Shown: positions 1 through 34,775 of the stretch, one piece after another
Numbering within the stretch: position 1 is the first letter of the stretch
Layout of the letters: every line of letters begins with the position of its first letter
Origin: Desulforamulus profundi
Lineage (GTDB): Bacteria > Bacillota_B > Desulfotomaculia > Desulfotomaculales > Desulfotomaculaceae
Length of the DNA: 63,083 nucleotides
Direction of reading: 5' to 3'
Assembly (NCBI RefSeq): GCF_002607855.1
Contig: NZ_AWQQ01000024.1
Coordinates: 35,057-98,139, forward strand
Made by a program: the position numbers and the translations under genes
The notes under the pieces: model-generated
What the model was told of the DNA's origin: nothing
The model's input: the letters and a program-made list of their open reading frames with translations, nothing else
Databases searched by the model: none

Positions 1-1
1 C

Positions 2-217
2 CATGCGGACGTAAATGGAGCCAGAAATATCTGTGTCAGAAGTTCTGACGAGATTGGTTCCGTTTACAAGAGTAAAAAGTTGGTCCTCCGGATACTGGTG
101 GAGCGATTCACCGGTAGGCTGGAGCGAGAACCATGCCGCTGTAGTACGGCTAAGGACTTAATTCTAAGAAATCCTTATTTTAAGGATTATTGGGATAAGT
201 TCAAAGAAGTTTCGTAG
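2..217 (+). pseudogene. C-terminal end of an IS200/IS605-type TnpB protein (partial, enters from left edge)
   Basis: The open frame enters the window and stops at 215-217, giving 71 codons. It begins with HADVNGARNIC, the signature just after the zinc ribbon of TnpB/OrfB proteins, where the D is usually the last RuvC-like acidic residue. The remaining C-terminal tail is basic and Cys-containing (EPCRCSTAKD). The rest of the protein lies outside the window, so intactness cannot be judged. A second TnpB-bearing element lies at the right edge. Identification rests on this one motif and its position. Confidence 0.6.
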
Positions 218-492
218 AGTTCTATGTTTTTCTATGGAATTTCATACTATGCAAAAGGTCATCATGGTTTGCTATGCTATGGACAGGAATCCTACCAGAA
301 GCATTTAGCTGCGCTGCAAAAGCTGATTGGCTAAACTTGATGACTCATAGAACCAGCGGCCCTCGTAAAAGCATCTGCTTTTAAAAGCAGGTGCTTTTTT
401 AACTAGAAGAATTGAAACAGTAATCACCAATTGTTTTAAATGAATAGTACGAGAAGAATGTGTAATAAATTGTAAAATTTCTGCATGATCGG
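218..492. other. Intergenic stretch with a possible coding remnant
   Basis: No intact gene is visible between the TnpB end and the promoter of the toxin-antitoxin pair. A short frame around 260-333 reads GHHGLLCYGQESYQKHLAAL and then stops. It has no start or ribosome site and may be debris from the mobile element. A strong terminator lies at 367-400. Confidence 0.3.
367..400 (+). terminator. Rho-independent terminator
   Basis: A hairpin of AAAGCATCTGCTTTT against AAAAGCAGGTGCTTT pairs along its length with one T-G wobble and runs into six T. It insulates the downstream toxin-antitoxin promoter from the left-edge transposon gene. Confidence 0.75.
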
Positions 493-521
493 TTTAACTA
501 ATACTTAAAAATAGATATAAT
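493..521 (+). promoter_or_regulatory. SigmaA-type promoter for the toxin-antitoxin pair
   Basis: TTTAAC at 493-498, a 17-base spacer, then a perfect TATAAT at 516-521. It sits 34 bases before the antitoxin start, which is preceded by AGAGGTGA. The region is very AT-rich. Confidence 0.6.
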
Positions 522-554
522 ATTAATAAAAGTAAAACTAAGAGGTGAAAATTT

Positions 555-824
555 ATGAGTATAAATAAAATGTCACACAAAGGCCAGGTAGTTATACCTA
601 AACACCTAAGAGACAAGTATGGATTAAAGCCTGAACAAAACATTAGAATAACAGAAATAGATGGTCATATAGCCATAATACCGCTGTTTGATGACCCAAT
701 TAAAGATACAAGGGGAATTCTTAAAAAGACCCATCCCAAGATAACTTTTTCGGCAGACGAACTAATTAAGGAATACCGAGAAGAAGAAAAGTCTCTGGAA
801 TCGCATAGGGAGGATGGTTTTTAA
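555..824 (+). CDS. AbrB/MazE-type antitoxin
   Basis: This 89-residue protein opens with a SpoVT/AbrB-like swapped-hairpin fold: MSHKGQVVIPKHLRDKYGL, then a short strand with HIAIIPL. These folds bind operator DNA as dimers. The C-terminal half is charged (KEYREEEKSLESHREDGF), as expected for the arm that occupies the toxin active site. The ATG follows AGAGGTGAAAATTT. The stop is two bases before the toxin ATG, the usual antitoxin-first arrangement, so the pair probably represses its own promoter at 493-521. It lies beside transposon debris, consistent with horizontal acquisition. Function is inferred from family and gene order. Confidence 0.85.
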   Translation: MSINKMSHKGQVVIPKHLRDKYGLKPEQNIRITEIDGHIAIIPLFDDPIKDTRGILKKTHPKITFSADELIKEYREEEKSLESHREDGF

Positions 825-826
825 AT

Positions 827-1240
827 ATGGAGAGTTATGTTTTGGACACTTACGCTGTACTTGGATATTTTTTGGACGAGCCATCCGCAGAGACCGTTGC
901 AGAAATACTTGAATTAGCAAGAAACAGTGAAATCAAGTTGTATATGTCATGGATCAATGTGGGTGAAGTATATTATATTATCCAACGAAGATACGACAGA
1001 AAAATAGCAATAGACTTACTTGAAAATTTAAAAGCATGGCCCATTGAACTATTTCAAGTATCCCATGAACTAGTGATTTTAGCTGGAGATATAAAGGCAA
1101 AGTATCCAATGTCTCTTGGAGATTCATATGCTGCGGCATTAACAATGCGGGTACGAGGGACACTTTTAACTGCGGATAAAGAGTTTCAACGACTTGAAAA
1201 TAACATTATCAAGATAAAGTGGTTAAAAAAGCATAGATAA
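827..1240 (+). CDS. VapC-type PIN-domain toxin ribonuclease
   Basis: A 137-residue PIN domain. The metal-binding acids are present: D7 (YVLDTYAVL), E47 (NVGEVYY), D99 (SLGDSYAAAL) and D117 (LLTADKEF), the classic four-acid set. Known VapC toxins cut tRNA or rRNA under stress. The target here cannot be predicted. The ribosome site GGGAGG lies inside the 3' end of the antitoxin gene, so the two are translationally linked. Length is normal and no frame break is seen, so the toxin should be active when the antitoxin is removed. Confidence 0.88.
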   Translation: MESYVLDTYAVLGYFLDEPSAETVAEILELARNSEIKLYMSWINVGEVYYIIQRRYDRKIAIDLLENLKAWPIELFQVSHELVILAGDIKAKYPMSLGDSYAAALTMRVRGTLLTADKEFQRLENNIIKIKWLKKHR

Positions 1241-1395
1241 AAAATAATGCACATTGCAACGTTCATGCGAAAAACAACATTAACTTGTGTAGGTTTTTTT
1301 ATTTTCTTAGGATACCTGCGGAGGGAGGACGGCAGGTGGCGGAAGTACCTAATGTTCAAAATACTAAAGAATAACAAAATTCATCTATCTAATTC

Positions 1396-1424
1396 TTGAC
1401 AGTGATTGACTAAAAAATTATACT
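1396..1424 (+). promoter_or_regulatory. Promoter P1 of the ilv-leu operon
   Basis: TTGACA at 1396-1401, 17-base spacer, TATACT at 1419-1424. It is a near-consensus sigmaA promoter directly before the first T-box leader. Confidence 0.75.
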
Positions 1425-1431
1425 TAGTAGT

Positions 1432-1727
1432 AATCAATAGCAAAACAGCGTTGAAGGGGATCGGGCATCTGATACAGGGCCACAGAGAGCCGGAGCAGGT
1501 GGAAGCCGGCGCCACATGACAGATTGCCTACATCACCCCGGAGCTGCCCTTCCGAAAGCATCACGCAAGTAGGTTGGGCCGGGTTTGGGAACCCGTTAGC
1601 AAATCCGCACAATACATTACTGTATGCTGTGCAAAAGTGGCTCTTAACCGGAGAGCAATCAGGGTGGTACCGCGGAAGGATGACCTCTCGCCCCTGGCAA
1701 ATCGCCAGGAGTGAGAGGTTTTTTGTT
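1432..1727 (+). promoter_or_regulatory. T-box leader 1, isoleucine specifier (ATC)
   Basis: The conserved T-box sequence AGGGTGGTACCGCGG is at 1661-1675, followed by a terminator (stem arms 1684-1689 and 1713-1718 plus extended pairing, T-run 1719-1724). Stem I carries the usual GAGAGCCGG...GGAAGCCGGC arm. In the specifier loop the frame ATC-ACCCCGGAG puts codon ATC (Ile) at 1532-1534, aligned to the same flank in the other two T-boxes of this window. Uncharged tRNA-Ile should stabilise the antiterminator and allow read-through. Codon assignment is by alignment, not by modelling. Confidence 0.88.
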
Positions 1728-1768
1728 GTACGCTCTGAAAATTTAACCCGATCATAACACAGAACTTC

Positions 1769-1797
1769 TTGACACTACTTGTCGAAACTACTATACT
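1769..1797 (+). promoter_or_regulatory. Promoter P2 of the ilv-leu operon
   Basis: TTGACA at 1769-1774, 17-base spacer, TATACT at 1792-1797, located after the first T-box terminator and before the second T-box. Its hexamers and spacing equal those of P1, which suggests the promoter and leader were duplicated together. Confidence 0.75.
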
Positions 1798-1802
1798 TAC
1801 TA

Positions 1803-2106
1803 GTAATTTATTTAGTAAGGTACAGAAAACAGCTATGATCGGGACAACAGTCTGAACAGGGCCACAGAGAGCCGGGTTGGGTGGAAGCCGGCGCCACTGG
1901 CAGATTGGTCTCACCCGGGAGCTGCCCTCGTGAAAGTGATTGGCACGAGTAATTGGGGCCGGGTTTTCAGAACCCGTTATCAAAAGGCACAGGGTATGTA
2001 TGTATTTTGTGCATGAGTGGCTCTTGCTAAGAGCAATCAGGGTGGTACCGCGGAAGGATAAACCTCTCGTCCCTGGCATTGATGCCGGGGAACGAGAGGT
2101 TTTTTG
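1803..2106 (+). promoter_or_regulatory. T-box leader 2, leucine specifier (CTC)
   Basis: T-box sequence AGGGTGGTACCGCGG is at 2039-2053 and a terminator at 2061-2106 ends in six T. The specifier loop reads CTC-ACCCGGGAG, placing a Leu codon at 1910-1912. The leader is strongly similar to T-box 1 across Stem I and the antiterminator, indicating tandem duplication followed by a specifier change. It ends 27 bases before ilvD, so transcripts from both P1 and P2 must pass it. Confidence 0.88.
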
Positions 2107-2132
2107 TATACTCATAATCGGGAGGTAAAGCT

Positions 2133-3789
2133 ATGCGCAGCGATGCAATGAAAAAAGGGTTGGAGAGGGCTCCGCACCGCAGTTTGTTTAAAGCTTTAGG
2201 ATTGGTGGATGAAGAATTGTCCCGGCCTATGATCGGGGTCGTGAACTCCTTTAACGAGATTGTTCCAGGACATATCCATTTGAAAGATATCGCCGAGGCC
2301 GTCAAGGCAGGCGTTCGCATCGCCGGCGGGACGCCGGTGGAGTTTCCCGCCATTGCAGTTTGCGACGGCATCGCCATGGGGCACCCCGGTATGCGGTATT
2401 CCCTGGCCAGCCGGGAAATCATCGCCGATTCCATTGAGATTATGGCCCAGGCTCATCCTTTGACGGGCTGGTGCTGATTCCCAACTGTGATAAGGTGGTT
2501 CCCGGTATGCTGATGGCTGCGGCCCGGCTGAACATTCCCGCCATTGTTGTCAGCGGCGGCCCCATGATGGCAGGAAAATTTCAAGACCAGAATGTTTCGG
2601 TAAGTCAAATGTTTGAGGCGGTGGGAGCAGTCCAGGCCGGCCGTATGACCGGTGAAGAGCTGGCTGAACTGGAAGATAACGCCTGCCCCGGCTGCGGTTC
2701 CTGTGCCGGCATGTTTACCGCCAACAGCATGAACTGCCTGACCGAGGCCCTGGGCATGGCCCTGCCGGGCAACGGCACCGTGCCGGCGGTCTCCGCCGCC
2801 AGGCGCAGGCTGGCCAAAGCGGCCGGCATGCGGGCGGTGGCCCTGGTCAAAGAAGATGTAAAGCCCCGGGATATTTTAACGGCGGAGAATTTCCGCAACG
2901 GGTTGGCGGTGGATATGGCCCTGGGCTGTTCCACCAATACGGTACTGCACCTGCCCGCCATCGCCCATGAAGCGGGCATCGAGTTAAACCTCGATTTAAT
3001 CAACGAAATCAGTGAGAAAACACCGCACCTGTGCAAGCTCAGTCCGGCCGGGCAGCAGCATATTCAAGACCTGTACGCAGCCGGCGGCATCCAGGCGGTG
3101 ATGAAAGAACTGTCCGTCAATGGTCTGATTAATCCGAACATTAAAACCGTCAGCGGTTTGACGGTCGGCCAATTATTGGAACAGGCAAAAATTAAAGATA
3201 GAAATGTCATCCGCAGTGTAAAAGAACCCTACAGCGCCACCGGCGGCCTGGCCATCCTGCGGGGCAACCTGGCGCCGGACGGAGCGGTGGTAAAGAGAGC
3301 GGCGGTGGCCCCTGAAATGTTAAAACACACCGGCCCGGCCAGGGTGTTCGACGGGGAAGAGGCAGCCATTGCAGCCATCATGGCAGGCCAAATTAAACCC
3401 GGCGACGTGGTGGTGATCCGCTACGAGGGTCCCAAAGGCGGTCCGGGTATGCGGGAAATGCTGGCACCCACCTCGGTGCTGGCGGGGATGGGACTGGACA
3501 AAGAAGTGGCGCTGTTAACCGACGGGCGTTTCTCCGGCGCATCCAGGGGAGCTTCCATCGGACACATTTCACCGGAAGCAGCGGAAGGGGGTCTTATCGC
3601 CGTCCTTCAGGACGGGGACATTGTGGAGATCGACATCCCCAACTACCGGCTGGAAATCAAGCTGGATCAGGCAGAAATCGACCGGCGCCTGGCCACCTGG
3701 CAGCCTCCCAACCCAAAGTAACCACCGGCTACCTGGCCCGCTACGCCAAACAGGTATCTTCCGCCGGCAAAGGAGCGGTGCTGAAGTAG
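2133..3789 (+). CDS. ilvD: Dihydroxyacid dehydratase IlvD (two frame breaks)
   Basis: IlvD dehydrates dihydroxy-isovalerate and dihydroxy-methylvalerate in valine and isoleucine synthesis and carries an Fe-S cluster. Conserved segments are [49 protein letters not shown] and GRFSGASRG. The frame breaks near 2459 (CCTTTGAC needs one more base to read [11 protein letters not shown]) and again near 3712, after which [20 protein letters not shown] restores the normal C-terminus ending at 3789. With both repaired the protein has the usual length of about 550 residues. First gene of the operon; ATG preceded by GGGAGG. Sequencing deletions are the likeliest cause. Confidence 0.9.
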
Positions 3790-3930
3790 TCGTCGGACGT
3801 CAGTGCTTACGGGTCGGGCTTCGGGGTCCAGACAATGGCCATTAGCCATCGACCATTGGCCTTTTAGTAAAAACCAAAAACTTGCAGCCAAAAGCCAAAA
3901 GCCGACCCCAAAGAAATGCAGTATTAGCAT
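3784..3930. repeat. Intergenic repeat-family sequence before ilvB1
   Basis: The gap holds GTCGTCGGACGTC, a word shared with gaps at 7129-7251 and 19888-19921. It is followed by a GGGGTCCAG ... GACCCCAAAGAA bracket that resembles the ends of the palindromic element at 13340-13447. Inside are short iterations (AGCCAAAAGCCAAAAGCC and two ATTGGCC-type words). No gene is seen. Probably a degenerate miniature repeat. Confidence 0.5.
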
Positions 3931-3948
3931 GACTGGAGGTTTTTACAG

Positions 3949-5606
3949 ATGAAAATGTCCGGAGCGGAGATTTTAATAGACAGTCTAAAAGAAATGGGCG
4001 TTGAGACCATTTTTGGGTATCCCGGTGGCGCCATCCTCCTGTGTACGATGCCCTGTATGATGCAGATATTCACCATATCCTGACCCGCCACGAGCAGGGA
4101 GCAGCCCACGCGGCAGACGCTACGCCAGGGCCTCCGGCAGGGTGGGGGTTTGTCTGGCCACCTCCGGCCCCGGGGCCACCAACCTGGTGACGGGGATTGC
4201 CAACGCCTACATGGATTCAGTGCCCCTGGTAGCCATCACCGGTCAGGTCCCGACGTCCATGCTGGGCCGGGATTCCTTTCAAGAGGTGGATATCACCGGC
4301 ATCACCCTTCCCGTCACCAAGCACAACTATATCGTAAAAGATATTCGAGATCTGGGACGGATTGTCAAAGAGGCCTTCTATATTGCTGGCACCGGTCGCC
4401 CCGGCCCGGTCCTGATTGATGTTCCCAAGGATGTTTCCTCCGGGGAAACGGATTACCACCGCAACAGCTACCCGGCCCTGCCCGGTTACAACCCGCCCCG
4501 CAAAGGCCGGGAGGAATTGGTCAACCAGGCCATGAAGCCATCGCCGCAAGCCAGCGCCCGGTTATCTATGCCGGAGGCGGCGTTATCAGCGCCGGGGCCC
4601 ATGAGGAGCTGAAGAAACTGTCCGAGACACTGTTGGCCCCGGTGGCCTCCACCCTGATGGGACTGGGGGGATTCCCCGGTGACCACCCGCTGGCCCTGGG
4701 CATGCTGGGCATGCACGGTACCAAGTACGCCAACTATGCCATTTGCGAGTGCGACCTGCTGATCGCCGTCGGGGTTCGCTTCGATGACAGGGTCACCGGC
4801 AAGGTGGAATCCTTTGCCCCCGATGCCAAGATCATTCATATCGACATAGACCCGGCGGAGCTGGGGAAAAATGTTCGGGTAGATATTCCCATCGCCGGGG
4901 ATGTCAAGGCGGTGCTCAACCAACTGTTGGAACGCCTTGAAGCAAGACTGCCGGCCGCCTGGCAGGACAAAATTGCCGCCTGGAAAAAGGAATACCCTCT
5001 TGCATATGATGAAAACGGCGGCAATCTCAAGCCCCAGCACGTCATCCGGGAGATTTACCGGCAAACCGGCGGCCAGGCCCGCATCACCACCGAGGTGGGG
5101 CAGCACCAGATGTGGGCGGCCCACTACTATACCTACACCCGGCCCCGTTCCTTTATCTCCTCCGGCGGGTTGGGCACCATGGGTTATGGTTTCCCCGCCG
5201 CCATCGGCGTGCAGGTGGCCTGCCCGGAGGAAACGGTCTTTAACATCGCTGGCGACGGCAGCATTCAGATGAACATCCAGGAACTGGCCACCGCCGTGGA
5301 TTATGATCTGCCTGTGAACGTTGCCATTATGAACAACGGTTACCTGGCATGGTTCGCCAGTGGCAGGAGATGTTCTACAACCGCCGCTATTCATACACTG
5401 AGATGAAGAACCCGGACTTTGTCAAGCTGGCCGAGGCCTATGGCGCCGAAGGATACCAGGTGACCCGCAAGGACCAGGTGGCGGAGGTGCTGGATGCGGC
5501 CATCCAGTCCCGAAAACCGGTGTTAATGGACTTTGTCATTGAAAGAGAAGAAAATGTTTTGCCCTTTGTTCCGCCGGGTAAGGCGCTGAATGAAATGTTA
5601 GGGTAG
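3949..5606 (+). CDS. ilvB: Acetolactate synthase large subunit, first copy (four frame breaks)
   Basis: ThDP-dependent condensation of pyruvate to acetolactate or acetohydroxybutyrate. The family features are all present across frames: [10 protein letters not shown], the ThDP glutamate in [42 protein letters not shown], and the C-terminal ThDP motif [12 protein letters not shown]...NNGYL. Breaks occur near 4037, 4119, 4533 and 5346, each cured by one added base. ATG follows GGAGG with nine bases between. A second, unbroken homologue lies at 7267-8937, so loss of this copy would be tolerable. It is the only gene here that could plausibly be a true pseudogene, although the lesions match the window-wide pattern. 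Confidence 0.85.
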
Positions 5607-5620
5607 AAAGGAGTGCCGCG

Positions 5621-6133
5621 ATGTACCATACACTGGCAGTATTAGTGGAAAACAGCCCGGGCGTGCTGACCCGGGTGGCCGGCCTATTCAGCCGGCGGGG
5701 ATACAACATCGACAGCCTGGCCGTGGGCCGCACCGACAACCCGGCCATCTCCCGCATAACCATCGTGGTGGAGGGGGATGAGCGGGTCCTGGAGCAGGTG
5801 AGCAAGCAGCTGCACAAGCTGGTGGATGTCATCAAAATCAATGACATTACTTCATCCGCCCACGTGGACAGGGAACTGGTTCTAATCAAGGTTAGCGCCG
5901 ATGCCGGCAGCAGGGGAGAAATCATGCAGATTGCCCAGATCTTCCGGGCCAGTATCGTGGACTACGGCCACAAAAACCTCACCCTTGAGTGCACCGGCAA
6001 CCAGGAAAAAATCAATGCCTTTGAAGAGGCGCTGCGTCCCTTCGGGATCAAGGAATTGGTGCGCACCGGTAAAGTAGCCATGCTGCGGGGCGCTAAATAT
6101 ACCAACATCAACAGAACAAAAGAGGAGGACTAA
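5621..6133 (+). CDS. ilvN: Acetolactate synthase small regulatory subunit
   Basis: 170 residues with an N-terminal ACT domain ([20 protein letters not shown], residues 2-80) and the conserved second domain ([20 protein letters not shown]). It activates the large subunit and mediates valine feedback. It begins 14 bases after ilvB1 with ribosome site GAAAGGAG and ends two bases before ilvC. Intact and of normal length (family about 160-175). Confidence 0.95.
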
Positions 6134-6134
6134 A

Positions 6135-7127
6135 ATGGTAAAGGTTTATTACGATGCAGATGCTAACTTGGAATTTTTAAAAGGCAAAAAGATTGCCGTG
6201 CTGGGTTACGGCAGCCAGGGCCACGCCCAGGCGCAAAGCCTTAGAGATAGCGGTTTGGATGTGGTGGTGGGCCTGCGCAAAGACAGCCCCCGCTGGGCCA
6301 AGGCCGAAGCCGACGGCCTGGAAGTGGCCATCGTGCCTGAAGCCTGCGCCAAGGCCGATGTGATCCAGATCCTGCTCCCCGATGAAATCCAGGGACGGGT
6401 TTATGCCGAAGAAGTGGAACCCTACCTGAGCGAAGGCAAAGCCCTGATGTTCTCCCATGGTTTTAACATTCACTTTGGCCAAATCGTGCCCCCCAAGCAT
6501 GTGGATGTCTTTTTGGTGGCTCCCAAAAGCCCCGGGCACCTGGTAAGACGTATGTATGCCGAGGGTAAAGGCGTTCCCGGGCTGGTGGCCGTTTACCAGG
6601 ATTACACCGGCAAAGCCAAAGACATTGCCCTGGCCTATGCCAAGGGGATCGGCTGCACCAAAGCCGGTGTCTTTGAGACCTCCTTTAGGGAAGAAACCGA
6701 GACCGACCTCTTTGGCGAGCAGGCAGTCCTCTGCGGCGGCGTCAGCGAACTGATCAAGGCCGGCTTCGATACCCTGGTGGAAGCCGGTTACGCCCCTGAA
6801 ATGGCGTACTTCGAATGCCTGCACGAACTGAAATTAATCGTGGATCTCATCTATGAAGGCGGCCTTTCCCGCATGCGGTACTCGGTCAGCAACACCGCCG
6901 AATACGGCGACTATATGGTAGGTCCCCGCATCATTACCGAAGAAACCCGTGAGGAAATGAGGCAGGTGCTGGCAGAGATCCAGGACGGCACCTTCGCTCG
7001 CAACTGGATGCTGGAAAACCAGGTAAAAGGCCCCCAGTTCAATGCCATCCGCAAAATGGAGCAGGAGCATCCCATTGAACAGGTGGGCGCCGAACTCCGC
7101 AAAATGATGCCCTGGCTCAAGAAGTAG
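6135..7127 (+). CDS. ilvC: Ketol-acid reductoisomerase IlvC
   Basis: 330-residue class I enzyme converting acetolactate to dihydroxyisovalerate with NADPH and Mg. The Rossmann loop reads [19 protein letters not shown] near residues 21-39. The cofactor specificity loop has Arg and Ser ([16 protein letters not shown]), typical of NADPH users. Mg ligands lie in [18 protein letters not shown] and in the C-terminal knotted domain ([17 protein letters not shown]). No frame break. It is followed by a 140-base repeat-bearing gap before the second ilvB. Confidence 0.97.
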
Positions 7128-7128
7128 A

Positions 7129-7251
7129 CGTCGGTCGTCGGATGTCTGACGTCAGGAATAAAAATATAAAGGTGTTAGCTGGCGGCTGTCGGTCTTCCGG
7201 TATGACCAATGGTTTTACTGACGACCGACGACCGACGACTAACGACCAAAA
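7129..7251. repeat. MITE-like element with GTCGGTCGTCGG inverted ends
   Basis: The gap between ilvC and ilvB2 starts with GACGTCGGTCGTCGGATGTC and ends with GACGACCGACGACCGACGAC. GTCGGTCGTCGG at the left is inverted as CCGACGACCGAC at the right. The same words appear at 3784-3800 and 19888-19921. There is no coding potential. A miniature repeat or an expanded simple repeat are both possible. Confidence 0.55.
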
Positions 7252-7266
7252 CGGGAGGGATATGCT

Positions 7267-8937
7267 TTGGAAATGACCTGTGCCGAAGCGTTGGTTCGCT
7301 GCCTGGAAATGGAGGGTGTGGAGTTAATCTTTGGTTATCCCGGTGGGGCCATCCTCCCTGTGTACGATGCCCTGAACAACAGCAAGATTAAGCATATACT
7401 GACCCGGCACGAGCAGGGGGCGGCCCATGCGGCCAGCGGTTATGCCCGGACCACCGGCAGGGTGGGGGTCTGTATGGCCACCTCCGGTCCCGGCGCCACC
7501 AACCTGGTAACCGGCCTGGCCAACGCCTATATGGATTCCATTCCGCTGGTGGCCATCACCGGGCAGGTTCCCACCGTCCAGGTAGGAACCGACGCCTTTC
7601 AAGAAGTGGATATCACCGGCATCACCATGCCCATTACCAAACACAATTACCTGGTAAAAGACCCCAAAATGATGCCCATGATTATCAAACGGGCCTTTCA
7701 TATCGCCCGCACAGGCAGGCCGGGACCGGTGTTGATCGACCTGCCCAGGGACGTGGCAAACACCCCCATCCAGTTCAAATATCCCGACGATGTGGAACTG
7801 ATGGGATACAAACCCACCGTCAAGGGCCATACGGCCCAAATCAACCAGGCAGCCAAACTCATTATGCAGGCCCAGCGGCCCGTCATTTACATAGGCGGCG
7901 GCGTGGTGAACGCCGATGCCTCGGAAGAGCTGGTCTGGCTGGCGGAAACCATCGATGCGCCGGTGGTCTCCACCCTGATGGGGCTGGGCGCCTTTCCCGG
8001 CGACCACCCGCTGTTCCTGGGCATGCTGGGGCTGCACGGCAACAAAGCCGCCAACCTGGCGGTCACCGAGTGTGACCTGTTGATTACCCTGGGCGCCCGT
8101 TTTGACGACCGGGTTACCGGCAGGATTGCTGGGTTTGCCCCCAGAGCGCGGGTCATCCATGTGGACATTGATCCGGCGGAAATCAGTAAAAATGTGATTT
8201 CCCACCTGCCCATTGTGGGCGATACCAAGAAGGTTCTGGAGGCCCTGCTGGTGCGGTTGGACAAAAAACAAAACACCGCCTGGACCAACACCGTGGGCTA
8301 CTGGAAGAATGAATTTGCCCCCTGCTACCGGGAAGGCGGCGAGTATCTGAAGCCGCAGTATATAATAGAAGAAATTTACCGGCATACCGGCGGCGACGTT
8401 GTTGTGGCCACCGATGTGGGCCAGCACCAGATGTGGGTGGCCCAGCACTTTCCCTTTAAACAGCCCCGGAAATTTGTCACCTCCGGCGGTCTGGGCTGCA
8501 TGGGATTCGGGCTGCCCGGCGCCATCGGCGCCCAGTTCGGGAAGCCTGATGAAACGGTGGTGCTGGTGACCGGTGACGGCAGCATCCAAATGACCCTTAA
8601 TGAGTTAGGCACCGCCGCCGAGCAATGCCTGCCGTTGAAGATCTTTGTGTTGAACAACAGGCGGCTGGGCATGGTACGGCAGCTGCAGGAGTTTTACTGC
8701 GAAAAACGCTACATGGCGGTGGACTTCACCTTCGTGCCGGACTTTGCGGCCCTGGCCCGGGTCTATGGTTTTAAGGGCTTCACCGTCCGTACCGACCAGG
8801 AGCTGCAGGCTGCCCTGGCAGAGGCCTTCAGCGACCCGGGTCCGGTTCTGGTGGACTGCGCTATCGACCCCGATGAGAATGTACTGCCCATGGTGCTGGC
8901 AGGTAAAGATATCTGCGACGCCGTGGATCAGGAATAG
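7267..8937 (+). CDS. ilvB: Acetolactate synthase large subunit, second copy (intact)
   Basis: 556 residues, full length and unbroken. ThDP-pyrophosphate domain glutamate in [20 protein letters not shown]-dependent middle domain, and [15 protein letters not shown] with [20 protein letters not shown] at the C-terminal ThDP site. It starts at TTG after GGGAGGGATATGC. It is clearly paralogous to the copy at 3949, but the two differ throughout, so the duplication is old. Having two large subunits with one small subunit in one operon may give two isozymes with different substrate preference (pyruvate versus 2-ketobutyrate); that is inference. Confidence 0.95.
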
Positions 8938-8957
8938 ATGAGACGGGAGGGAATGGT

Positions 8958-10475
8958 TTGAGCAACCGGGTTTACATCTTCGATACCACCCTGCGGGACG
9001 GCGAGCAGTCCCCGGGTGTCAGTTTAAATATTAATGAGAAACTTCAAATTGCCAGGCAGTTGGCCCGCCTGGGCGTGGACATCATTGAAGCTGGTTTTCC
9101 CATTACCTCCCCCGGCGATTTTGCCGCTGTTCAGGCAGTGGTCAGGGAAGTGCGGGGCGTTACGATAGCAGGTTTGGCCCGGGCCAATTTAAAGGATATC
9201 GACGTGGCCTGGGAAGCCCTCCGGGATGCGGAGCAGGCCCGTATTCATACCTTTATCGCCACCTCCGACATTCACCTGAAATACAAGCTGCGCAAGGACC
9301 GGGACCAGGTGGTTGAGGCAGCGGTGGCGGCGGTGAAACACGCCAAAAAGTACACCTCGGATGTGGAATTTTCCGCCGAGGATGCCTCCCGCTCGGATGT
9401 AGACTATTTGGCCCGGGTCTTCGGCGAAGTGATTAAAGCCGGGGCCACGGTCATCAACATACCGGACACCGTGGGCTATGCCATGCCGGAGGAGTATGCC
9501 CTGTTTATCAAGCAGGTCATGGAAAGGACGCCCGGCATCGAAAAGGCTGTTGTCAGCGTGCACTGCCACGACGACCTGGGCCTGGCGGTGGCCAACTCCC
9601 TGGCCGCAGTGGGCGCCGGCGCCCGCCAGGTGGAAGGCACCGTCAACGGCATCGGCGAAAGGGCCGGCAACGCCGCCCTGGAAGAGGTGGTCATGGGCCT
9701 CTACACCCGTAAGGACCGTTACGGCCTCACCACCGGGTTCAACACCCGGGAGATTTACCGCACCAGCCGGTTGGTCAGCTCGTTAACCGGCATGCCGGTG
9801 CAGCCCAATAAAGCGGTGGTTGGCAAGAACGCCTTTGCCCACGAGTCCGGCATCCACCAGGACGGTGTGCTGAAGGAGCGCACCACCTACGAGATTATGA
9901 ACCCGGAAATGCTGGGCATTGCCGCCAGCAACCTGGTGCTGGGCAAACACTCCGGCCGCCATGCCTTCCGGGACCGCCTGGCCGAACTGGGCTACAACTT
10001 GACCGATGAAGAACTGAACCTGGCCTTTACCAGATTCAAGTCCCTGGCGGACAAAAAGAAGGAAATTACCGATCAAGACCTGCAGGCCATGGTGGAGGAC
10101 GAAATCCGGCAAATTCCGGACACCTATACCCTGGAATACTTCCACATCTCCAGCGGCACCACCGTGGTGCCCACGGCCACCGTGGGGCTGCGGGCGGGCG
10201 AGGAACGCAAGGAAGACGCTGCCTGCGGCGACGGCCCGGTGGACGCCATCTACAACACCGTGGATAAAATCACAGGCATCTCCTGCACCCTGGTCAACTA
10301 CGCCATCAACGCCATCACCGGCGGCAAAGATGCCCTGGGTGACGTAACCGTCAAGCTCAAGTGCGAAGGAAGCGAAAAGGTCTACATCGGGCGGGGCGTC
10401 AGCACCGACATCCTGGAAGCCTCCGCCAAGGCCTATGTAAATGCAGTCAATAAACTGATGTATGATATCGGGTAA
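8958..10475 (+). CDS. leuA: 2-Isopropylmalate synthase LeuA
   Basis: 505 residues. It condenses acetyl-CoA and 2-ketoisovalerate, the committed step to leucine. The HMGL-like TIM barrel opens with [18 protein letters not shown] and carries the metal histidines in [16 protein letters not shown]. The C-terminal leucine-binding regulatory domain is complete (about residues 390-505, [21 protein letters not shown]). Start is TTG, eight bases after GGGAGGG. Adjacent to ilvB2 and followed by leuC, so co-transcribed. Confidence 0.95.
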
Positions 10476-10506
10476 AAAAATATAAGCAAAGTCGAGGTGA
10501 AGAACC

Positions 10507-11769
10507 GTGCCAATGACAATCACAGAAAAGATACTGGCTGCGGCAGCAGGGAAAGACAGCGTAAAACCGGGGGAACTGATCAACGCCAAGGTAGACCTGG
10601 TTTTGGCAAACGATATCACAGCCCCTGTGGCCATCAAAGAATTTGAAAAGATCGGCCTGGAGAGGGTTTGGGACAAAGACAGAGTAGCCCTGGTGCCCGA
10701 CCATTTCACCCCCAACAAGGACATCAAATCTGCCGAACAGGCGAAGCTGGTGCGGGACTTCTCCCATACCCAGGAACTGACCAACTATTTTGAAGTGGGC
10801 CGCATGGGCATTGAGCACTGCCTGCTGCCCGAGCAGGGACTGGTGGGACCCGGTGACGTCATCATCGGGGCAGACTCCCACACCTGCACCTACGGCGCCC
10901 TGGGGGCCTTCGCCACCGGCGTGGGCAGCACCGACCTGGCGGCGGCCATGGCCCTGGGAGAAACCTGGTTTAAAGTACCGGAATCCATGAAGTTTATCTT
11001 TAACGGCCAGCTTAACAAATGGGTAGGCGGCAAAGACCTCATCCTTTACACCATCGGCAAAATCGGCGTGGACGGCGCCCTCTATCGGGCCATGGAATTC
11101 TGCGGCGAAGCCATCAGCCAGCTTTCCATGGACGGCCGCTTTACCATGTGCAACATGGCCATCGAAGCCGGGGGTAAAAACGGCATCATCCAGCCCGATG
11201 AAATTACCCGGCAGTATGTAGAAGGTAGGACCAAACGACCCTACACCTTCTATACCAGCGACCCGGACGCCAGTTATGTAGAAGTTTACGAATTTGACAC
11301 TGCCAAGATCGAACCCCAGGTGGCCTTCCCCCACCTGCCCGAGAATGCCCGTCCGGTCAGTGAAGCCGGCAGGGTGGACATCGACCAGGCCGTCATTGGT
11401 TCCTGCACCAACGGGCGTATGGAAGATTTGCGCCTGGCCGCCGAGATTCTCAAAGGCAAGAAAGTCAACAAGCGAGTCAGGCTGATTATCATCCCCGGCA
11501 CCCAGGAAATTTACCGCCAGGCCATGCGGGAAGGTTTGTTTGAAATCTTCCTGGATGCCGGTGCGGTTGTCAGCACCCCCACCTGTGGTCCCTGCCTGGG
11601 CGGCCACATGGGCATCCTGGCCAAAGGGGAGCGCTGCATCGCCACCACCAACCGCAACTTTGTGGGCCGTATGGGCCATGCCGAGAGTGAAGTGTACCTG
11701 GCCAACCCGGCGGTCACAGCGGCCAGCGCCGTGACCGGCCGTATTTCCCATCCCGAGGAGGTGCTGTAA
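10507..11769 (+). CDS. leuC: 3-Isopropylmalate dehydratase large subunit LeuC
   Basis: 420 residues of the aconitase superfamily, in the shorter clostridial/archaeal-type class. 4Fe-4S ligands are visible in [15 protein letters not shown] and [41 protein letters not shown] forms the substrate pocket. The start is GTG at 10507, with ATG two codons later as the alternative; GAGGTGAAG lies just upstream. The stop abuts leuD. Confidence 0.95.
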
Positions 11770-12270
11770 ATGAAACTGCAGGGTAAGGTTTGGAAATTTG
11801 GCAACGACGTGGATACCGATTTAATCATCGCCGCCCGCTATCTGAACAGCTCCGACCCGGCGGAACTGGCCCGGCACTGCATGGAGGATGCCGATCCCCA
11901 GTTTGCCTCCAAGGTACAGCCCGGCGACATCATCGTAGCCGCCAAGAACTTCGGCTGCGGCAGTTCCCGGGAGCACGCCCCCATTGCCATTAAGGCTGCC
12001 GGGGTCTCCTGCGTAGTGGCTAAATCCTTCGCCCGTATTTTTTACCGCAACGCCTTTAATATCGGTTTGCCCATTTTTGAGTGCCCCGAGGTTATCGATG
12101 AGCTGAAGGAAGGGGATACTATCACCGTTGACGCCGCCACAGGCGCCATCACCAATCTGACCACCGGCAAGGAGTACCAGGCGGTGCCCATCCCGGATTT
12201 CATGCGGCAAATCATTGATGCCGGCGGACTCATCAGCTATGTAAAAGGACGGGTGAATCAAGGTGTATAA
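11770..12270 (+). CDS. leuD: 3-Isopropylmalate dehydratase small subunit LeuD
   Basis: 166 residues, the swivel domain that pairs with LeuC. Diagnostic motifs are [19 protein letters not shown], then [17 protein letters not shown], which closes the active site. The ATG touches the stop of leuC and the 3' end overlaps the start of leuB, so the three are translationally coupled. Confidence 0.95.
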
Positions 12271-13333
12271 AATTGCGTTATTGCCCGGTGACGGCATCGG
12301 GCCGGAAATTGTCCCCCAGGCGGTCAGGGTTCTGCAGGCCGTGGGGGAAAAATTCAACCGGGAGTTTCAATTTCAGACAGCCCTCATCGGGGGAGCCGCT
12401 TACGACGCCACCGGCCACCCGCTGCCGGAGGAAACCCTGGCGGTCTGCCGCAGCAGCGACGCCATTTTGCTGGGGGCGGTGGGCGGACCCAAGTGGGATA
12501 ACCTGGAGCCCGAACTGCGCCCCGAGCGGGGAGCCCTGCTGCCCCTGCGCAAAAAGCTGGGCCTCTATGCCAACCTGCGCCCGGCGGTGGTGAACCCCGC
12601 CCTGGCGGAGGCCTCCACCCTGAAGGAAGAGCTTGTGTCAGGACTGGATATCCTGATCATTCGGGAACTGACCGGGGGGCTCTACTTTGGCGAAAAACGC
12701 AGGGAAGACCTGCCCGGCGGAGGCCAGAAAGCGGTGGAAACCCTGGAGTACACCACCGCCGAGGTGGAACGGGTGACCCGGCTGGGCTTTGAGATGGCCC
12801 GCAAAAGAAACAAAAAATTAATGTCCGTGGATAAGGCCAACGTGCTGGAAAGCTCCCGCCTGTGGCGGGAGGTGGTGGAAAGTGTGGCCAAAGAGTACCC
12901 GGATGTGGAACTGAGCCACATGTACGTGGATAACTGCGCCATGCAGCTGGTGCGCAATCCCAAGCAGTTTGATGTCATGGTGACCGAGAACATGTTCGGA
13001 GACATCTTAACCGACCTGGCTTCCCAGCTCACCGGCTCCATCGGCATGCTGCCCTCGGCCAGCCTGGGCGGCGAAGTGGCCCTTTACGAACCCATTCACG
13101 GTTCCGCGCCGGACATCGCCGGTCAAAACCTGGCCAATCCCATCGCCACCATCCTGTCCGTCGCCATGATGCTGCGCGTCTCCTTCAACTTGGAAGCCGA
13201 AGCAGCCGCCATCGAGCAGGCCGTAGACAGCGTCCTGGCCCGGGGCTACCGCACCGGCGACATCCTACAGCCAGGCAAAACCCGTGTGGGCACGGTGGAA
13301 ATGACGGAAGCGATCATTAGCGCTTTAGGGTAA
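12263..13333 (+). CDS. leuB: 3-Isopropylmalate dehydrogenase LeuB
   Basis: 356 residues, NAD-dependent oxidative decarboxylation of isopropylmalate. [13 protein letters not shown] at the N-terminus, substrate arginines around [11 protein letters not shown], metal acids in [14 protein letters not shown], and the NAD site [21 protein letters not shown] start overlaps the end of leuD by eight bases. Followed by the 108-base palindromic element. Confidence 0.96.
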
Positions 13334-13339
13334 TACATC

Positions 13340-13447
13340 GGGGTCTAGTTGCTAGACTTATACTGTATTTCTCTGGGGTCCTGTTATTGGCTTTTGGCCA
13401 ACAACAGGACCCGTAAGGAATACCCGAAAGGCTAGCAACTGGACCCC
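13340..13447. repeat. Nested palindromic element between leuB and cimA
   Basis: Outer arms of 16 bases (13340-13355 and 13432-13447; GGGGTCTAGTTGCTAG against CTAGCAACTGGACCCC, one T-G pair) enclose inner arms of 16 bases (13376-13391 and 13397-13412; one mismatch) around a five-base loop. Between the two pairs a short GTATT/AATAC also pairs. The whole region can fold into one long hairpin. There is no T-run. It may be a miniature transposable element or an RNA that shapes operon mRNA. Confidence 0.75.
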
Positions 13448-13476
13448 AAAGAACAGCAGTATGAGACAAAAATGGG

Positions 13477-15063
13477 GTGAACGCAATTGGGGATTATGCA
13501 AACCTAATCAAAATTTACGATACCACCCTGCGGGACGGCACCCAGGGGGAGGGAGTCAGCCTCTCGGCGGAGGATAAAATTAAAATTGCCCTGCGGCTGG
13601 ATGAAATGGGCTTCCATTATATCGAAGGGGGCTGGCCCGGCTCCAACCCCAAAGACATGGAATTCTTTAACCGCATTCAACAATACACCTTGAAGCACGC
13701 GGTGGTCACCGCCTTTGGCAGCACCTGCCGCCCCGGCGTGGAACCCGCCCGGGACGCCAACCTGAACCGCCTGCTGGAAGCAGGGGTCAAAGTGGCCACC
13801 ATCTTCGGCAAAGCCTGGGACTTCCATGTCACCCGGGCGTTAAACACCACCCTGGAAGAGAATTTGCGCATGGTGCGGGAATCCGTGGCCTATCTCAAGA
13901 GCCACGGCCTAACAGTTTTCTTCGACGGGGAGCATTTCTTCGACGGCTATAAGGCCAATGCCGGGTACGCGCTGGAGGTTGTAAAGGCAGCGGTGCAGGG
14001 CGGTGCCGACGCGGTGATCCTCTGCGATACCAACGGTGGCAGCCTGCCCCTGGAAGTATTCCAGGCCGTAACCCGGGTGAGGGAAGAACTGCCCGATGTG
14101 GAACTGGGCATCCACGCCCATAACGACGGGGAAATGGCGGTGGCCAATTCCCTGATGGCCGTCCAGGCCGGGGCAACCCAGGTGCAGGGCACCGTCAACG
14201 GGCTGGGAGAGCGGTGCGGCAACGCCAATCTCTGCTCTATCATCCCCAACCTCACCTTTAAACTGGGCTGCCCCACCATCCCCCGGGAAAACCTGGTCTA
14301 CCTGACGGAGCTTTCCCGCTATGTTTACGAACTGGCCAACTTAAACCCCGCCGCCAACCAGCCCTATGTGGGAGAGAGCGCCTTTGCCCACAAGGGAGGC
14401 ATCCACGTCAGCGCCCTCATGAAGGAACCGGGCACCTACGAGCACCTGGACCCGGCGCTGGTGGGCAACACCCGGCGGGTGCTGATGTCCGAGCTGGCGG
14501 GCATCTCCAACCTCCTGTATAAATACAAGGAGCTTCATTTAGACAAGAGCAGCCCCGAGGGCCGGCAGGTGCTGGACCAGTTGAAAAACCTGGAGCACTG
14601 CGGCTACCAGTTTGAAGCGGCAGAGGGCTCCCTGGAACTGATGCTGCGCAAGGCCCTGAACGGTTACCGGGAACCCTTCCAACTGGAGAGCATGCGGCTT
14701 ATCCTGCAAATGTGGGAGGGGCAGCCCATTCACTCCGAAGCGGTCATCAAGCTGAGAGTGGGGGAAGAGGTGGTGCACACCGCCGCCGAAGGAAACGGGC
14801 CGGTGAATGCCCTGGACAACGCCCTGCGCAAGGCCCTGGAAACCTTTTATCCCGAAGTGGCCGCCCTGCGGCTGCTGGACTACAAAGTCCGGGTGCTGCA
14901 GGAAAAGGCCGGCACCGAAGCCCAGGTCCGTGTCTTAATTGAAACCGGCAACGGCAAAAAGACCTGGGGCACAGTGGGCGTCTCCACCAACATCATCGAG
15001 GCCAGCTGGCAGGCCCTGGCGGACAGTATGGCCTACGGCTTGCTGAAAGAACATAAGCTATAA
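13477..15063 (+). CDS. cimA: (R)-Citramalate synthase CimA
   Basis: 528 residues. The opening LIKIYDTTLRDGTQGEGVSL and HYIEGGWPGSNPKDMEFF mark the CimA/LeuA2 group, which condenses pyruvate and acetyl-CoA to citramalate, the threonine-independent entry to isoleucine. Metal ligands are in GIHAHNDGEMAVANSLMAVQ, and there is a full C-terminal regulatory domain. LeuC, LeuD and LeuB of the same operon can carry citramalate to 2-ketobutyrate, which feeds both IlvB copies. No threonine deaminase gene is in the window. GTG start follows AAATGGGG; alternative starts downstream are less likely. Confidence 0.92.
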   Translation: MNAIGDYANLIKIYDTTLRDGTQGEGVSLSAEDKIKIALRLDEMGFHYIEGGWPGSNPKDMEFFNRIQQYTLKHAVVTAFGSTCRPGVEPARDANLNRLLEAGVKVATIFGKAWDFHVTRALNTTLEENLRMVRESVAYLKSHGLTVFFDGEHFFDGYKANAGYALEVVKAAVQGGADAVILCDTNGGSLPLEVFQAVTRVREELPDVELGIHAHNDGEMAVANSLMAVQAGATQVQGTVNGLGERCGNANLCSIIPNLTFKLGCPTIPRENLVYLTELSRYVYELANLNPAANQPYVGESAFAHKGGIHVSALMKEPGTYEHLDPALVGNTRRVLMSELAGISNLLYKYKELHLDKSSPEGRQVLDQLKNLEHCGYQFEAAEGSLELMLRKALNGYREPFQLESMRLILQMWEGQPIHSEAVIKLRVGEEVVHTAAEGNGPVNALDNALRKALETFYPEVAALRLLDYKVRVLQEKAGTEAQVRVLIETGNGKKTWGTVGVSTNIIEASWQALADSMAYGLLKEHKL

Positions 15064-20239: not shown

Positions 20240-22067
20240 ATGTGTGGAGTCGTCGGCTATGTGGGCAGCAGGCCCGCAACACCTATTATTCTTGAAGGCT
20301 TAAAGAAACTTGAATATAGAGGGTACGATTCATCCGGCGTGGCAGTCCTGGATAAGGACGGCTTGAAAATTGAGAAAAAAATGGGACGCCTGGCCGAACT
20401 GGAAAAGGCCTTGAGCGGCAGAGAAGTAGGCGCCACCATCGGCATCGGCCATACCCGCTGGGCCACCCACGGGCGTCCCAACGACGTCAACGCGCATCCC
20501 CATACCTCCAACGACGGCAAAATCGCCGTGGTGCACAACGGCATTATCGAAAACTACCTGCAGCTGCGGGAATGGCTCTCTTCCATGGGCCATGTCTTTA
20601 AATCCGAGACCGATACCGAAGTCATCCCCCACCTGATCGAGCATTTCTACAAAGGGGATTTAATTGAAGCGGTCCAAAAGACCGTCTCCCACCTGGAAGG
20701 TTCCTACGCCATCATGACCATCTCGGTGGACCAACCCGGCCGCATCATCGCCGTACGCCAGGATATGCCCCTGGTAGTCGGCCTGGGCCAGGGAGAGAAC
20801 CTGCTGGCCTCAGACATCCCGGCCCTGCTCAAACACACCCGCCGGTGCTACCTGCTGAATGACGGCGATGTGGTGGAACTGAAAGCCGACCAGGTCATCA
20901 TCCGGGATGTCACCGGCAAAGTGGTGGAAAAGGAAATCTTCGAAGTCACCTGGGACGCCGAAGAAGCAGAAAAGGGCGGCTACGACCACTTTATGCTCAA
21001 AGAAATCTTCGAACAGCCCCGGGCGCTCCGGGATACCCTGAAGGGACGCATTTCCCATGCCTGTGATAAAGTCGTCCTGGACGAAATCAAAATGACCCCT
21101 GAACAAATCAAGGGGATCAAAAGAATCATCGTTACCGCCTGCGGCACCGCTTACCACGCAGGTTTGGTGGGCAAATACGTCATCGAGCAGCTGGTGCGGA
21201 TTCCCGTCGAGGTGGATATTGCCTCCGAATTCCGCTACCGCGACCCCCTGGTGGATAAAGATACCTTGGTGGTGGTCGTCAGTCAGTCCGGTGAAACCGC
21301 CGACACCCTGGCAGCTCCGGGAAGCCCGCCGCCGCGGCGCCAGAGTGGTGGCCATTACCAACGTGATCGCCAGCTCAGTGGCCCGGGAGGCAGACGACAT
21401 CATCTACACCTGGGCCGGCCCGGAAATTTCCGTGGCATCCACCAAGGCCTACACCACCCAGCTGGTTGCCATGTACCTCCTGGCCCTCTACCTGGCCCAG
21501 GAACGCAACACCCTGGCCGCCGGCAACATCAAGGAAATCCTGGGTGAACTGAAGTCCATCTACGCCAAAGCCCAGGAAGTCCTGGACAACGTGGAGCCCA
21601 TTAAAGAATTTGCCAAGCAGTACCACAAAGCTGAAGACACCTTTTTCATCGGCCGCGGCCTGGACTATGCCGTAGCTCTGGAAGGTTCTCTGAAACTGAA
21701 GGAGATCTCCTACATCCACGCCGAAGCCTACGCCGCCGGCGAACTCAAACACGGCACCCTGGCCCTGATCGTGGAAAACATCCCGGTCATCGCCCTGGCC
21801 ACCCAGCAGAGCCTGTTTGAAAAAATGGTCAGCAACATCAAAGAAGTCAAAGCCAGAGACGCTTCCGTCATTGCCCTGGCCATGGCAGGCCACACCGAAG
21901 TGGAAAAAGTAGCCGACCAGGTGCTGTATATCCCCAAGACCCACCAGGTCCTGGCACCGATTCTGACGGTAATTCCGCTGCAACTGCTGGCGTATTATAT
22001 GGCCGTGTATCGTGGTTGTGATGTTGATAAACCGAGGAATTTGGCGAAGAGCGTGACGGTGGAGTAA
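20240..22067 (+). CDS. glmS: Glucosamine-6-phosphate synthase GlmS (one frame break)
   Basis: Makes glucosamine-6-phosphate from fructose-6-phosphate and glutamine. The N-terminal Ntn glutaminase domain starts MCGVVGYVGSR with the catalytic Cys2 and has GHTRWATHG. Two SIS isomerase domains follow (CGTAYHAG, SQSGETADTL, and later GRGLDYAVALEGSLKLKEISYIHAEAYAAGELKHG). The C-terminus ends KPRNLAKSVTVE as in intact enzymes. The frame breaks near 21310; one added base restores LREARRRGARVVAITNV. The gene is normally essential, so an assembly error is likely. Start ATG after AAGGAGG. Confidence 0.95.
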
Positions 22068-32856: not shown

Positions 32857-34775
32857 GGAGTGTCACAATATTTGCTCCATGGCTGAATTGAGCACGCACC
32901 CCTCACAGAACCGTGCTGGCGCGATTAACGCACACGGCTCCTCATATCAACATTTACAGATATAGCCAATTTCTGTTTTAAGCTTGTAGATGTTAACATA
33001 GGTTTTGGGCCGAGGAATAGGATATCTTTTAAGGAATAAGACGAATTTACCCCAGTCAAAACTTCTTCGCTGACTGCGCCGGTTCAGCCATTTGAATAAC
33101 AACCGCCTGACTTTGTCCCGGAATTTATCCATCATAGAATAATTGTCGGTGACACCGTAGTACTGGTAGTATCCGCGCAGTTTACTCTGCAGCGTGTCCA
33201 TCAGTTCCTTGACTGGCGTGCTCCGGTTCTTACGCAACCATTCTTTGCACCGGAGAAGGCTTGCTTTGTACTTTTTCCGACTAGTCTTGCGTTTGACTCT
33301 GAACCGCCCATCCCGGCTTTTGCCGCAATAGTGGGTGAAGCCGAGAAAGTCGAACGTTTCCGGTTTATTCCTATCCTGCCCTTTACACTTAGCAGCTGCG
33401 TTTCGTCCGAACGAATGATTTTCGTCTTTTCTTCGGCAATCTCCAGGTTGAAGCGCCCCAGCCTGGTAACCAGTGTCCGGTAGAAAGCCTTGGCTTCATC
33501 CTCATACTGGAAGCAACAGACGAAATCATCACAATACCGTACCATATACGCATCTCCCCGACATGCTCTCCGTACTACTTTCTCAAACCACAGATCAAGC
33601 GCGTAGTGCAGGTAGACATTCGCCAGTATGGGGGATACTACTCCACTGCGGCGTTCCTTCGGGGGTATCGTAAACCATCCCTGCTTCTATGACTCCAGCC
33701 TTGAGAAACCGGACAATGAGCCGGTGGATGTTTGGGTCGGCAATCCGGTGCCCGACAAATTTCATCAGCCATTGGTGGTCGACATGGTCGAAAAAGCCAC
33801 GGATGTCAGCATCTACAATGTAGTTAATGTTCTTTGTTTCGATGATACGGTTTAGGACTTTCAGGCGTCATGGCATCCTCGATTGGGTCTGAATCCGAAG
33901 GAGCAGTCCAAGAATTCGGCTTCGTATATGGTATTGAGTATCTTGGACAGTGCCTTTTGCACTAATTTGTCCTCGTAGGCGGGAATGCCGAGCGGTCTGG
34001 TTTTGTCCGTACCAAGCTTAGGGATGAAGGTACGCTTCACAGGTTGCGGCTTATAGGCCTGTCTTTTCATTCGCTCCACCAGGTCGCGGATGTTTTGCAA
34101 CAGGTTCCGGCCATATTCCTCCTTGGTAACCCCATCTACACCGGGCGCCTTGCGCTTTTCCAGCTCAAGGTGACAATTGGTGAGCATAGTTTCATTGACA
34201 AGATGAGCAAGCGATGTAAAGCGCTCTTCCGGCCGTTCTTTGGCTATTTCTGCTATCCTTGCAAGTTTCGTTTCCATTAGTTCCCTACCTCTGTGTGTAG
34301 TCAATGTGTCTCCAACAAGGTCGTTGATATGTCACCGCCTTTCCTCCACAGGCATTACCCTGCATCATTGGTACTATTCGGTGATCCGACTCCCTATCCG
34401 CCTTTTGACTCCCTCACTTTTTTATCGCTTGATCGGTCATACTCCTTACGAAGAGCGGATAGGATCTCCTGAGTTACCGCTGCATGTCAGTGTTTAACGT
34501 GCCGAGGTCTCCGACCCCGGGAAAGTTCCGTCAATCTCGCCATAATGATTGCCGAAATGTTGCTTTCTGCTCTGGCAACAGCATCAGCCTTCCCAATTTT
34601 ATAGGTATTTCGGGGCTCAGTTCCTTCAGCTTGTGCTTTCGGCCCGCTAACTTGCTTGTCTACGCTTAAACCTTTAGGTTACCCTATCGGTTCCAAGACT
34701 AGCTACGGGCGGCTGGCTAAACCCTACCCGGTGGGATTCCCACCCACTACATTCAGCGACATTGCTCAGCCGCAC
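32857..34775 (-). mobile_element. Group II intron
   Basis: On the minus strand a 5' end GTGCG at 34775-34771 begins a structured, non-coding 470-base stretch. The maturase gene sits in the domain IV position, and domain V follows at 32943-32911 (GAGCCGTG ... CACGGTTC stem). A domain VI-like hairpin (GGGGTG ... CACTCC) comes before the 3' end near 32857. Ends are approximate. It lies in a gap between the ACT-MBL and phospholipase genes and does not interrupt a recognisable gene. Confidence 0.75.
32947..34304 (-). CDS. ltrA: Group II intron reverse transcriptase/maturase (three frame breaks)
   Basis: Encoded protein needed for intron splicing and reverse transcription. RT motifs across frames: KRKAPGVDGVTKEEYGRNL, RPLGIPAYEDKLVQKAL, FGFRPNRGCHDA, DADIRGFFDHVDH, EGTPQGGVVSPILANVYLH (after repair), and the catalytic YMVRYCDDFVC. 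A maturase X domain follows (KLRGYYQYYGVTDNYSMMDK). Breaks near 33864, 33643 and 33395 each need one base. About 450 residues after correction; no HNH endonuclease domain is seen after X. Start near 34304; an internal Met (METKLARIAE) is an alternative. Confidence 0.85.

Follow-up and report, generated by a model that had tools for sequence, protein, structure and literature searches.

Tandem T-boxes on branched-chain amino acid operons are already known, as an earlier sequence-only reading of this DNA had also noted: they are described as enriched in Bacillota, with T-box/T-box pairs making up 75% of the contiguous cases for ilvD (Morales and Merino 2025, PMC12452182; statements on this and the other cited papers refer to the excerpts of them that were available). 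In the same source, the B. subtilis ilv-leu operon is presented as controlled by a Leu T-box together with CodY. An internal promoter is known already as well, from an adenine/T-box tandem: in the adenine riboswitch/T box-Tyr tandem of Clostridium botulinum, promoter sequences precede the first element and also lie between the two, such that RNA from the first promoter is subject to both inputs and RNA from the second to the T-box only (PMC9481103, 2022). That paper also describes an AND gate formed by a T box-Leu element and a ppGpp riboswitch. According to PMC7583486, it is still not known how tandem T-boxes act.

The leader described here lies in the window, which is the whole stretch of 63,083 nucleotides of Desulforamulus profundi DNA that was analysed. 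As in the tandems of PMC12452182, two complete T-boxes with separate expression platforms stand before ilv and leu genes; however, the boxes are treated there as a single transcript requiring two uncharged tRNAs, and in its text the word 'promoter' occurs once (for B. subtilis ilvB and CodY) and the word 'specifier' is absent. With the adenine/T box-Tyr tandem the window leader shares a promoter-like site before each element and the same two-route logic, whereas that tandem joins two RNA classes, has five examples in one species and combines opposite control signs. Both elements of the window are T-boxes, and the leader may work like the adenine/T box-Tyr case although it is a different system. 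Like the T box-Leu/ppGpp gate, it places two RNA sensors in series, one of them a Leu T-box. As in B. subtilis ilv-leu, the Leu T-box would be a shared read-through gate and isoleucine would act earlier (there at initiation), but the isoleucine input here is a second T-box cassette in cis, while there it is a DNA-binding repressor. No array of T-box cassettes with unlike specifiers and their own promoters was found among the literature matches listed, which include few subscription papers and do not extend to two surveys in which Ile/Leu tandems may be described.

Layout of the leader and its conservation

The leader contains the following features, all on the forward strand.

1396..1424 (+): P1, promoter-like site TTGACA-17-TATACT (hexamers 1396-1401 and 1419-1424), 11/12 to consensus in the promoter scan
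1442..1698 (+): T-box leader 1 (Ile), Rfam RF00230, 93.1 bits, E 4.6e-19
1532..1534 (+): specifier codon 1, ATC (Ile), next base A, assigned by conservation and synthetase-leader register
1665..1671 (+): T-box bulge UGGUACC of antiterminator 1, unpaired between two helices in the fold of 1650-1702
1683..1724 (+): intrinsic terminator 1, hairpin and T run, -27.7 kcal/mol, z -7.24
1769..1797 (+): P2, internal promoter-like site TTGACA-17-TATACT (hexamers 1769-1774 and 1792-1797), 11/12 in the promoter scan
1826..2077 (+): T-box leader 2 (Leu), Rfam RF00230, 99.5 bits, E 1e-20
1910..1912 (+): specifier codon 2, CTC (Leu), next base A, CTC in 10/10 rows
2043..2049 (+): T-box bulge UGGUACC of antiterminator 2, in the fold of 2028-2080
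2062..2106 (+): intrinsic terminator 2, hairpin and T run, -30.7 kcal/mol, z -7.22

Rfam, the promoter scan, the folds and the specifier codons agree on two complete promoter-plus-T-box units in series, Ile then Leu, with the same hexamers and the same 17-base spacing at P1 and P2, which is what the sequence-only reading had put forward; the covariance search that it had suggested for each T-box places both leaders at or above the RF00230 gathering score of 93 bits. Each unit has its own terminator, whose folding energy is equalled in 0 of 200 shuffles in either case. In the folds, both leaders form a 7-nt UGGN-bulge antiterminator competing with the intrinsic terminator, the antiterminator energies being at shuffle level (z 0.25 and -0.24).

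The promoter scan returned six promoter-like sites in positions 1-4500, where 5.2 sites of the looser, 9/12 type are expected by chance, and P1 and P2 rank top at 11/12 each. They face the same direction, 373 bases apart, and P2 follows the end of terminator 1 by about 45 bases. Only 1 of 1000 dinucleotide shuffles of the window's internal gap yields an 11/12 promoter, and P2 as a chance promoter is ruled out on this ground.

When 113 genomes of one class were searched at the DNA level with 1390-2132 as the query, seven showed matches over nearly the full length (G069, 93%; G067, 85%; G068, 84%; G072, 76%; G070, G064 and G066, 75%), all of which have two T-boxes by alignment and Rfam. G065 and G071 match in part, and the sole T-box found in them is the Leu unit, with the same promoter directly before it. 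The P1 hexamers and their 17-base spacing are identical in 8/8 tandem loci of the window lineage, where the spacer has a mean pairwise identity of 57%; those of P2 are identical in 10/10 rows, with a spacer identity of 54%, and the hexamers of both sites have a mean pairwise identity of 1.00. In the IlvD tree, G071, which has the Leu unit only, is the first branch in the window lineage, and G065, represented by an IlvD piece of 425 aa, is unplaced. On the sequence level, these features point to a real, conserved regulatory design, the logic of which is plausible.

Predicted gate logic and competing readings

The claimed layout of two checks for P1 RNA and one for P2 RNA holds at the sequence and comparative level. 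Provided that both predicted sigma-A type promoters fire and that each T-box answers the tRNA named by its codon, RNA from P1 would need read-through at the Ile T-box and then at the Leu T-box, and RNA from P2 at the Leu T-box only. The output would be approximately R(Leu) x [P2 + P1 x R(Ile)], with uncharged tRNA-Leu required and uncharged tRNA-Ile raising the level. An illustrative model with a read-through of 0.8 in the starved and 0.05 in the fed state, and with equal promoters, gives outputs of 0.05 (fed), 0.09 (Ile starved), 0.84 (Leu starved) and 1.44 (both) for P1 plus P2, and of 0.003, 0.04, 0.04 and 0.64, respectively, for P1 alone. In this model the operon is turned on by leucine starvation alone, and isoleucine starvation multiplies the output by about 1.5 to 1.9 at any leucine state, alone lifting only the low fed level. 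The most likely role of P2, as modelled, is thus to replace AND logic by a gate set by leucine, with isoleucine as a multiplier. A point against this reading is that isoleucine starvation by itself would do little to induce an operon that serves isoleucine synthesis too. The two-input gate with an unequal response that had been proposed stands in its layout, and the model refines it by making leucine the dominant input.

We put the probability at roughly three in four that the leader consists of two self-contained cassettes in series forming a Leu-dominant, Ile-boosted gate, and not a plain AND gate. A plain AND gate has one promoter upstream of both boxes and two complete units with terminators; the units here are indeed complete, but a promoter-like P2 stands in the gap between them. 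The distinction matters in that reading the leader as a single AND-gated transcript would mispredict the response to leucine starvation.

Against this, P2 might be a weak or silent leftover of duplication, the leader being a plain Ile AND Leu gate driven from P1, which we consider unlikely. Duplication of a whole cassette accounts for the presence of a promoter, as it carries the promoter along, so that the presence of P2 alone is no proof of its use; in addition, the Ile and Leu units of the window lineage group together against the other tree rows (100/100). The case for the use of P2 comes from its conservation. All 12 hexamer positions are unchanged in 10 rows beside a spacer of only 54% identity, whereas a silent site would be expected to decay, and the same site is retained directly before the only T-box found in G065 and G071.

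Promoter interference, in which polymerase from P1 occludes P2 and isoleucine starvation swaps P2 output for P1 output, is a still less probable reading. The two sites are co-directional, lie a few hundred bases apart and have identical hexamers, as such a mechanism would have it, but a co-directional promoter of similar strength usually causes no more than partial occlusion.

The Leu-dominant gate further presumes that the specifiers are read correctly. Both specifier loops follow the pattern NNN-A-CCC..GGAG, and in the alignment of the window and its relatives ATCA is kept in 8/8 rows while the bases before it vary. The register was calibrated on 41 other T-boxes from G056, G068 and G069, in which gene and codon were paired for the named cases only and synthetase genes were named by how the translated protein begins and not through a family search. 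In this register ileS leaders give ATC (3/3), thrS ACC (3/3), pheS TTC (2/2), metG ATG (2/2) and valS GTC (2/2 of the leaders displayed over the specifier, the third, from G056, lying outside the display). Conservation in relatives and the synthetase-leader register together bear out the proposed ATC (Ile) and CTC (Leu). That a specifier has been misread, one unit sensing another tRNA, e.g., Val at 1908-1910 where a GTC overlaps the CTC of the second loop, is very improbable, because this GTC is present in 4 of 10 rows and gone in 6 whereas CTC is retained in 10/10, which rules out the Val register, and because the synthetase leaders agree with the assignment, as do the Val units found in two relatives, G052 and G053, which have GTC in the window's register.

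The specifier codons match tRNAs relevant to the downstream ilv-leu operon. In the complete genome of G068, a scan of 28 loci, picked around 65 tRNA matches, found tRNA-Ile(GAT), tRNA-Leu(GAG) and tRNA-Val(GAC); each of these genes ends in ACCA, complementary to the bulge UGGU, and A73 is present in tRNA-Ile(GAT) and tRNA-Leu(GAG).

Elsewhere in the window, the T-box leader of hisS-aspS (55985-56213, -) gives AAC (Asn) in the same register, the amino acid of neither gene. AAC is also found in this leader in G068, G056 and G069, and the overlapping His codon CAC is gone in G069; the codon would be in keeping with an AspRS whose substrates include tRNA-Asn.

Cassette arrays in the class and other tandems

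IlvD was found in 105 of 113 genomes of the class, and the DNA upstream of the best ilvD copy was examined in 104 of them (G097 being left out because of a contig start), over 1500 bases for the first 30 genomes and up to 2600 for the others, several being shortened by contig ends. A motif search, which can miss unusual cores, found more than one T-box before ilvD in 12 of the 104 genomes, namely nine Ile-Leu, two Ile-Val and one Ile-Val-Leu array. The Ile-Leu arrays are those of the window and of G064, G066, G067, G068, G069, G070, G072, G050 and G051, the Ile-Val arrays those of G052 and G053, and the Ile-Val-Leu array that of G056, in which GTC was read by eye where the regular expression had missed it. 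The 13 array loci, window included, have 14 internal junctions, and a TTGACA-17-TATACT site (11/12) is present in 14/14, these being related rows that represent about two to four independent events; over all gaps, 0.031 junctions with an 11/12 site are expected (1000 dinucleotide shuffles per gap). The internal promoter, singled out earlier as the less expected part of the leader, is accordingly no local accident, and by sequence comparison the design is modular and lineage-wide, in Ile-Leu, Ile-Val and Ile-Val-Leu forms. Of 80 loci from a contig scan, many with little upstream DNA, six have one T-box core and none has two by a strict motif search; four genomes of the class of G001 gave short matches, and a pattern scan found none in seven further genomes.

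Two exact-pattern scans of a 398-genome Bacillota sample supplied ten T-box pairs outside arrays, and these together with the Trp-Trp pair of G056, the only control within an array-bearing genome, make 11 control junctions. Ten of the 11 have, by eye, the same specifier twice (Phe, Ser, Val, Arg or Trp), the Trp pair alone being Rfam-scored; in the other one, L329, the second box is incomplete. The gap of L339 is too short to score. Such same-specifier tandems (Trp, Phe, Ser, Val, Arg) likewise have two T-boxes and two terminators in series, but they repeat one specifier and have no 11/12 internal site: it is found in 0 of 10 scorable pairs, nine of which reach at most 8. The remaining one, L331, has a 10/12 site, CTGACA-18-TAAAAT, matched by 3 of 300 shuffles, which may be real, so that the contrast with the arrays is not absolute. 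Five of the scored control gaps measure 48-83 bases, which is less room than in the arrays, and these may lack a promoter for want of space; the remaining five, at 105-167 bases, offer room enough.

A second kind of comparison is provided by seven loci of the same class (L185, L187, L188, L189, L190, L211 and L219) in which an ATC T-box and, behind it, a Guanidine-I-model element lie in the stretch upstream of ilvD. None of these pairs (0/7) has an internal site above 8/12; 3/7 of the elements are at the gathering score, and the pairs lie at least 1 kb before ilvD. We take it that Guanidine-I-model elements can here be ppGpp riboswitches. This assumption fits the available excerpt of PMC9481103, although the T box-Leu/ppGpp gate described there names a Leu T-box, whereas the pairs of the class have an ATC T-box. 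Overall, the comparison suggests that an internal promoter accompanies unlike T-box specifiers, with lineage and operon confounded, because each of the 13 arrays stands before ilvD and comes from the same class.

In addition to complete pairs, half-tandem leaders were observed at G068:C1:1010990-1011365, G069:C37:142394-142774, G066:C1:1230086-1230442 and G051:C6:37581-37928, where a full T-box is followed by a weak match (E 2e-6 to 6e-4) confined to the antiterminator part; those of G068 and G069 have a TTC specifier, and the gene behind resembles DAHP synthase. A Leu (CTC) T-box also stands before a gene resembling an AMP-forming acyl-CoA ligase (named by eye) in L285 (G069) and L313 (G068).

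As to their history, the arrays would have grown by stacking of whole cassettes followed by a change of specifier. All 18 units of the window lineage, Ile and Leu, lie on one side of a branch of the unit tree (100/100). Forcing together all Ile units of both lineages is rejected (p-AU 1e-7), as is forcing together all Leu units (p-AU 7e-5), in tests whose groups were named after the first tree was known, and a single ancestral Ile-Leu array inherited by both lineages is disfavoured on these values. Either each of the two lineages built its arrays on its own, both placing Ile first, or units were homogenised within arrays, since gene conversion inside arrays produces the same tree picture as separate assembly. 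The units of the second lineage (G050-G053 and G056) form one clade in the first tree (97/91), in which three ileS leaders fall inside the window lineage on a very long branch (1.44). A second tree was made without the eight leaders of ileS, valS and acyl-CoA-ligase genes and without five of the ten ilv rows that have a single unit; the second-lineage units are not one clade in its best version, and a single clade is not rejected (p 0.48).

It is a tentative proposal, to which we give slightly less than even odds, that these promoter-T-box-terminator arrays with unlike specifiers (Ile, Val, Leu) constitute a cassette architecture of their own, assembled at least two times in the class and set apart by rule from one-promoter same-specifier tandems and from T-box/Guanidine-I-type tandems. 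The order of the units would set priority, the last unit acting as a veto and earlier ones as conditional increments. If true, this would be a design made of RNA alone through which several amino acids control one operon in order of priority. Nature provides a series, Leu, Ile-Leu, Ile-Val and Ile-Val-Leu, in which the inputs change and the cassette is constant, and the array series together with the tandems that have promoterless gaps offers a contrast that makes the contribution of the second box directly testable.

Downstream operon and neighbouring DNA

The leader precedes an operon in the order ilvD-ilvB-ilvN-ilvC-ilvB-leuA-leuC-leuD-leuB-cimA.

2133..3721 (+): ilvD, first operon gene, frame broken into ORFs 2133-2477 and 2471-3721
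3949..15063 (+): rest of the operon, ilvB (broken frames), ilvN, ilvC, second ilvB, leuA, leuC, leuD, leuB, cimA

The operon ends with cimA (13477-15063), identified as a citramalate synthase by TIGR00977 (748.6 bits for 13477-15060), and leuD is assigned by position, 11770-12267 being a match to Aconitase_C. Isoleucine can be obtained from pyruvate via citramalate synthase and LeuBCD. An operon with leuABCD and citramalate synthase makes a leucine-led gate for the whole set less strange.

IlvD is open across 552 codons in the closest relative, G069, which is 93% identical over the leader. Broken frames in the window affect ilvD and the first ilvB (2133-5606) and also 20240-22067, 36348-37444 and 52690-54494, where they resemble glmS, mnmA and aspS (some names by eye), and scattered single-base assembly errors are the likeliest cause. 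With several frames broken, this DNA cannot be fully trusted base by base; for the promoters and specifiers of the window, the letters are borne out by the relatives.

Just 5' of P1, positions 555-1240 encode a MazE-like antitoxin (PF04014) and a PIN-domain protein (PF01850), a VapBC-like toxin-antitoxin module. Finally, a Group II intron D1D4-6 element lies at 34505-34740 (-), with 159.6 bits.
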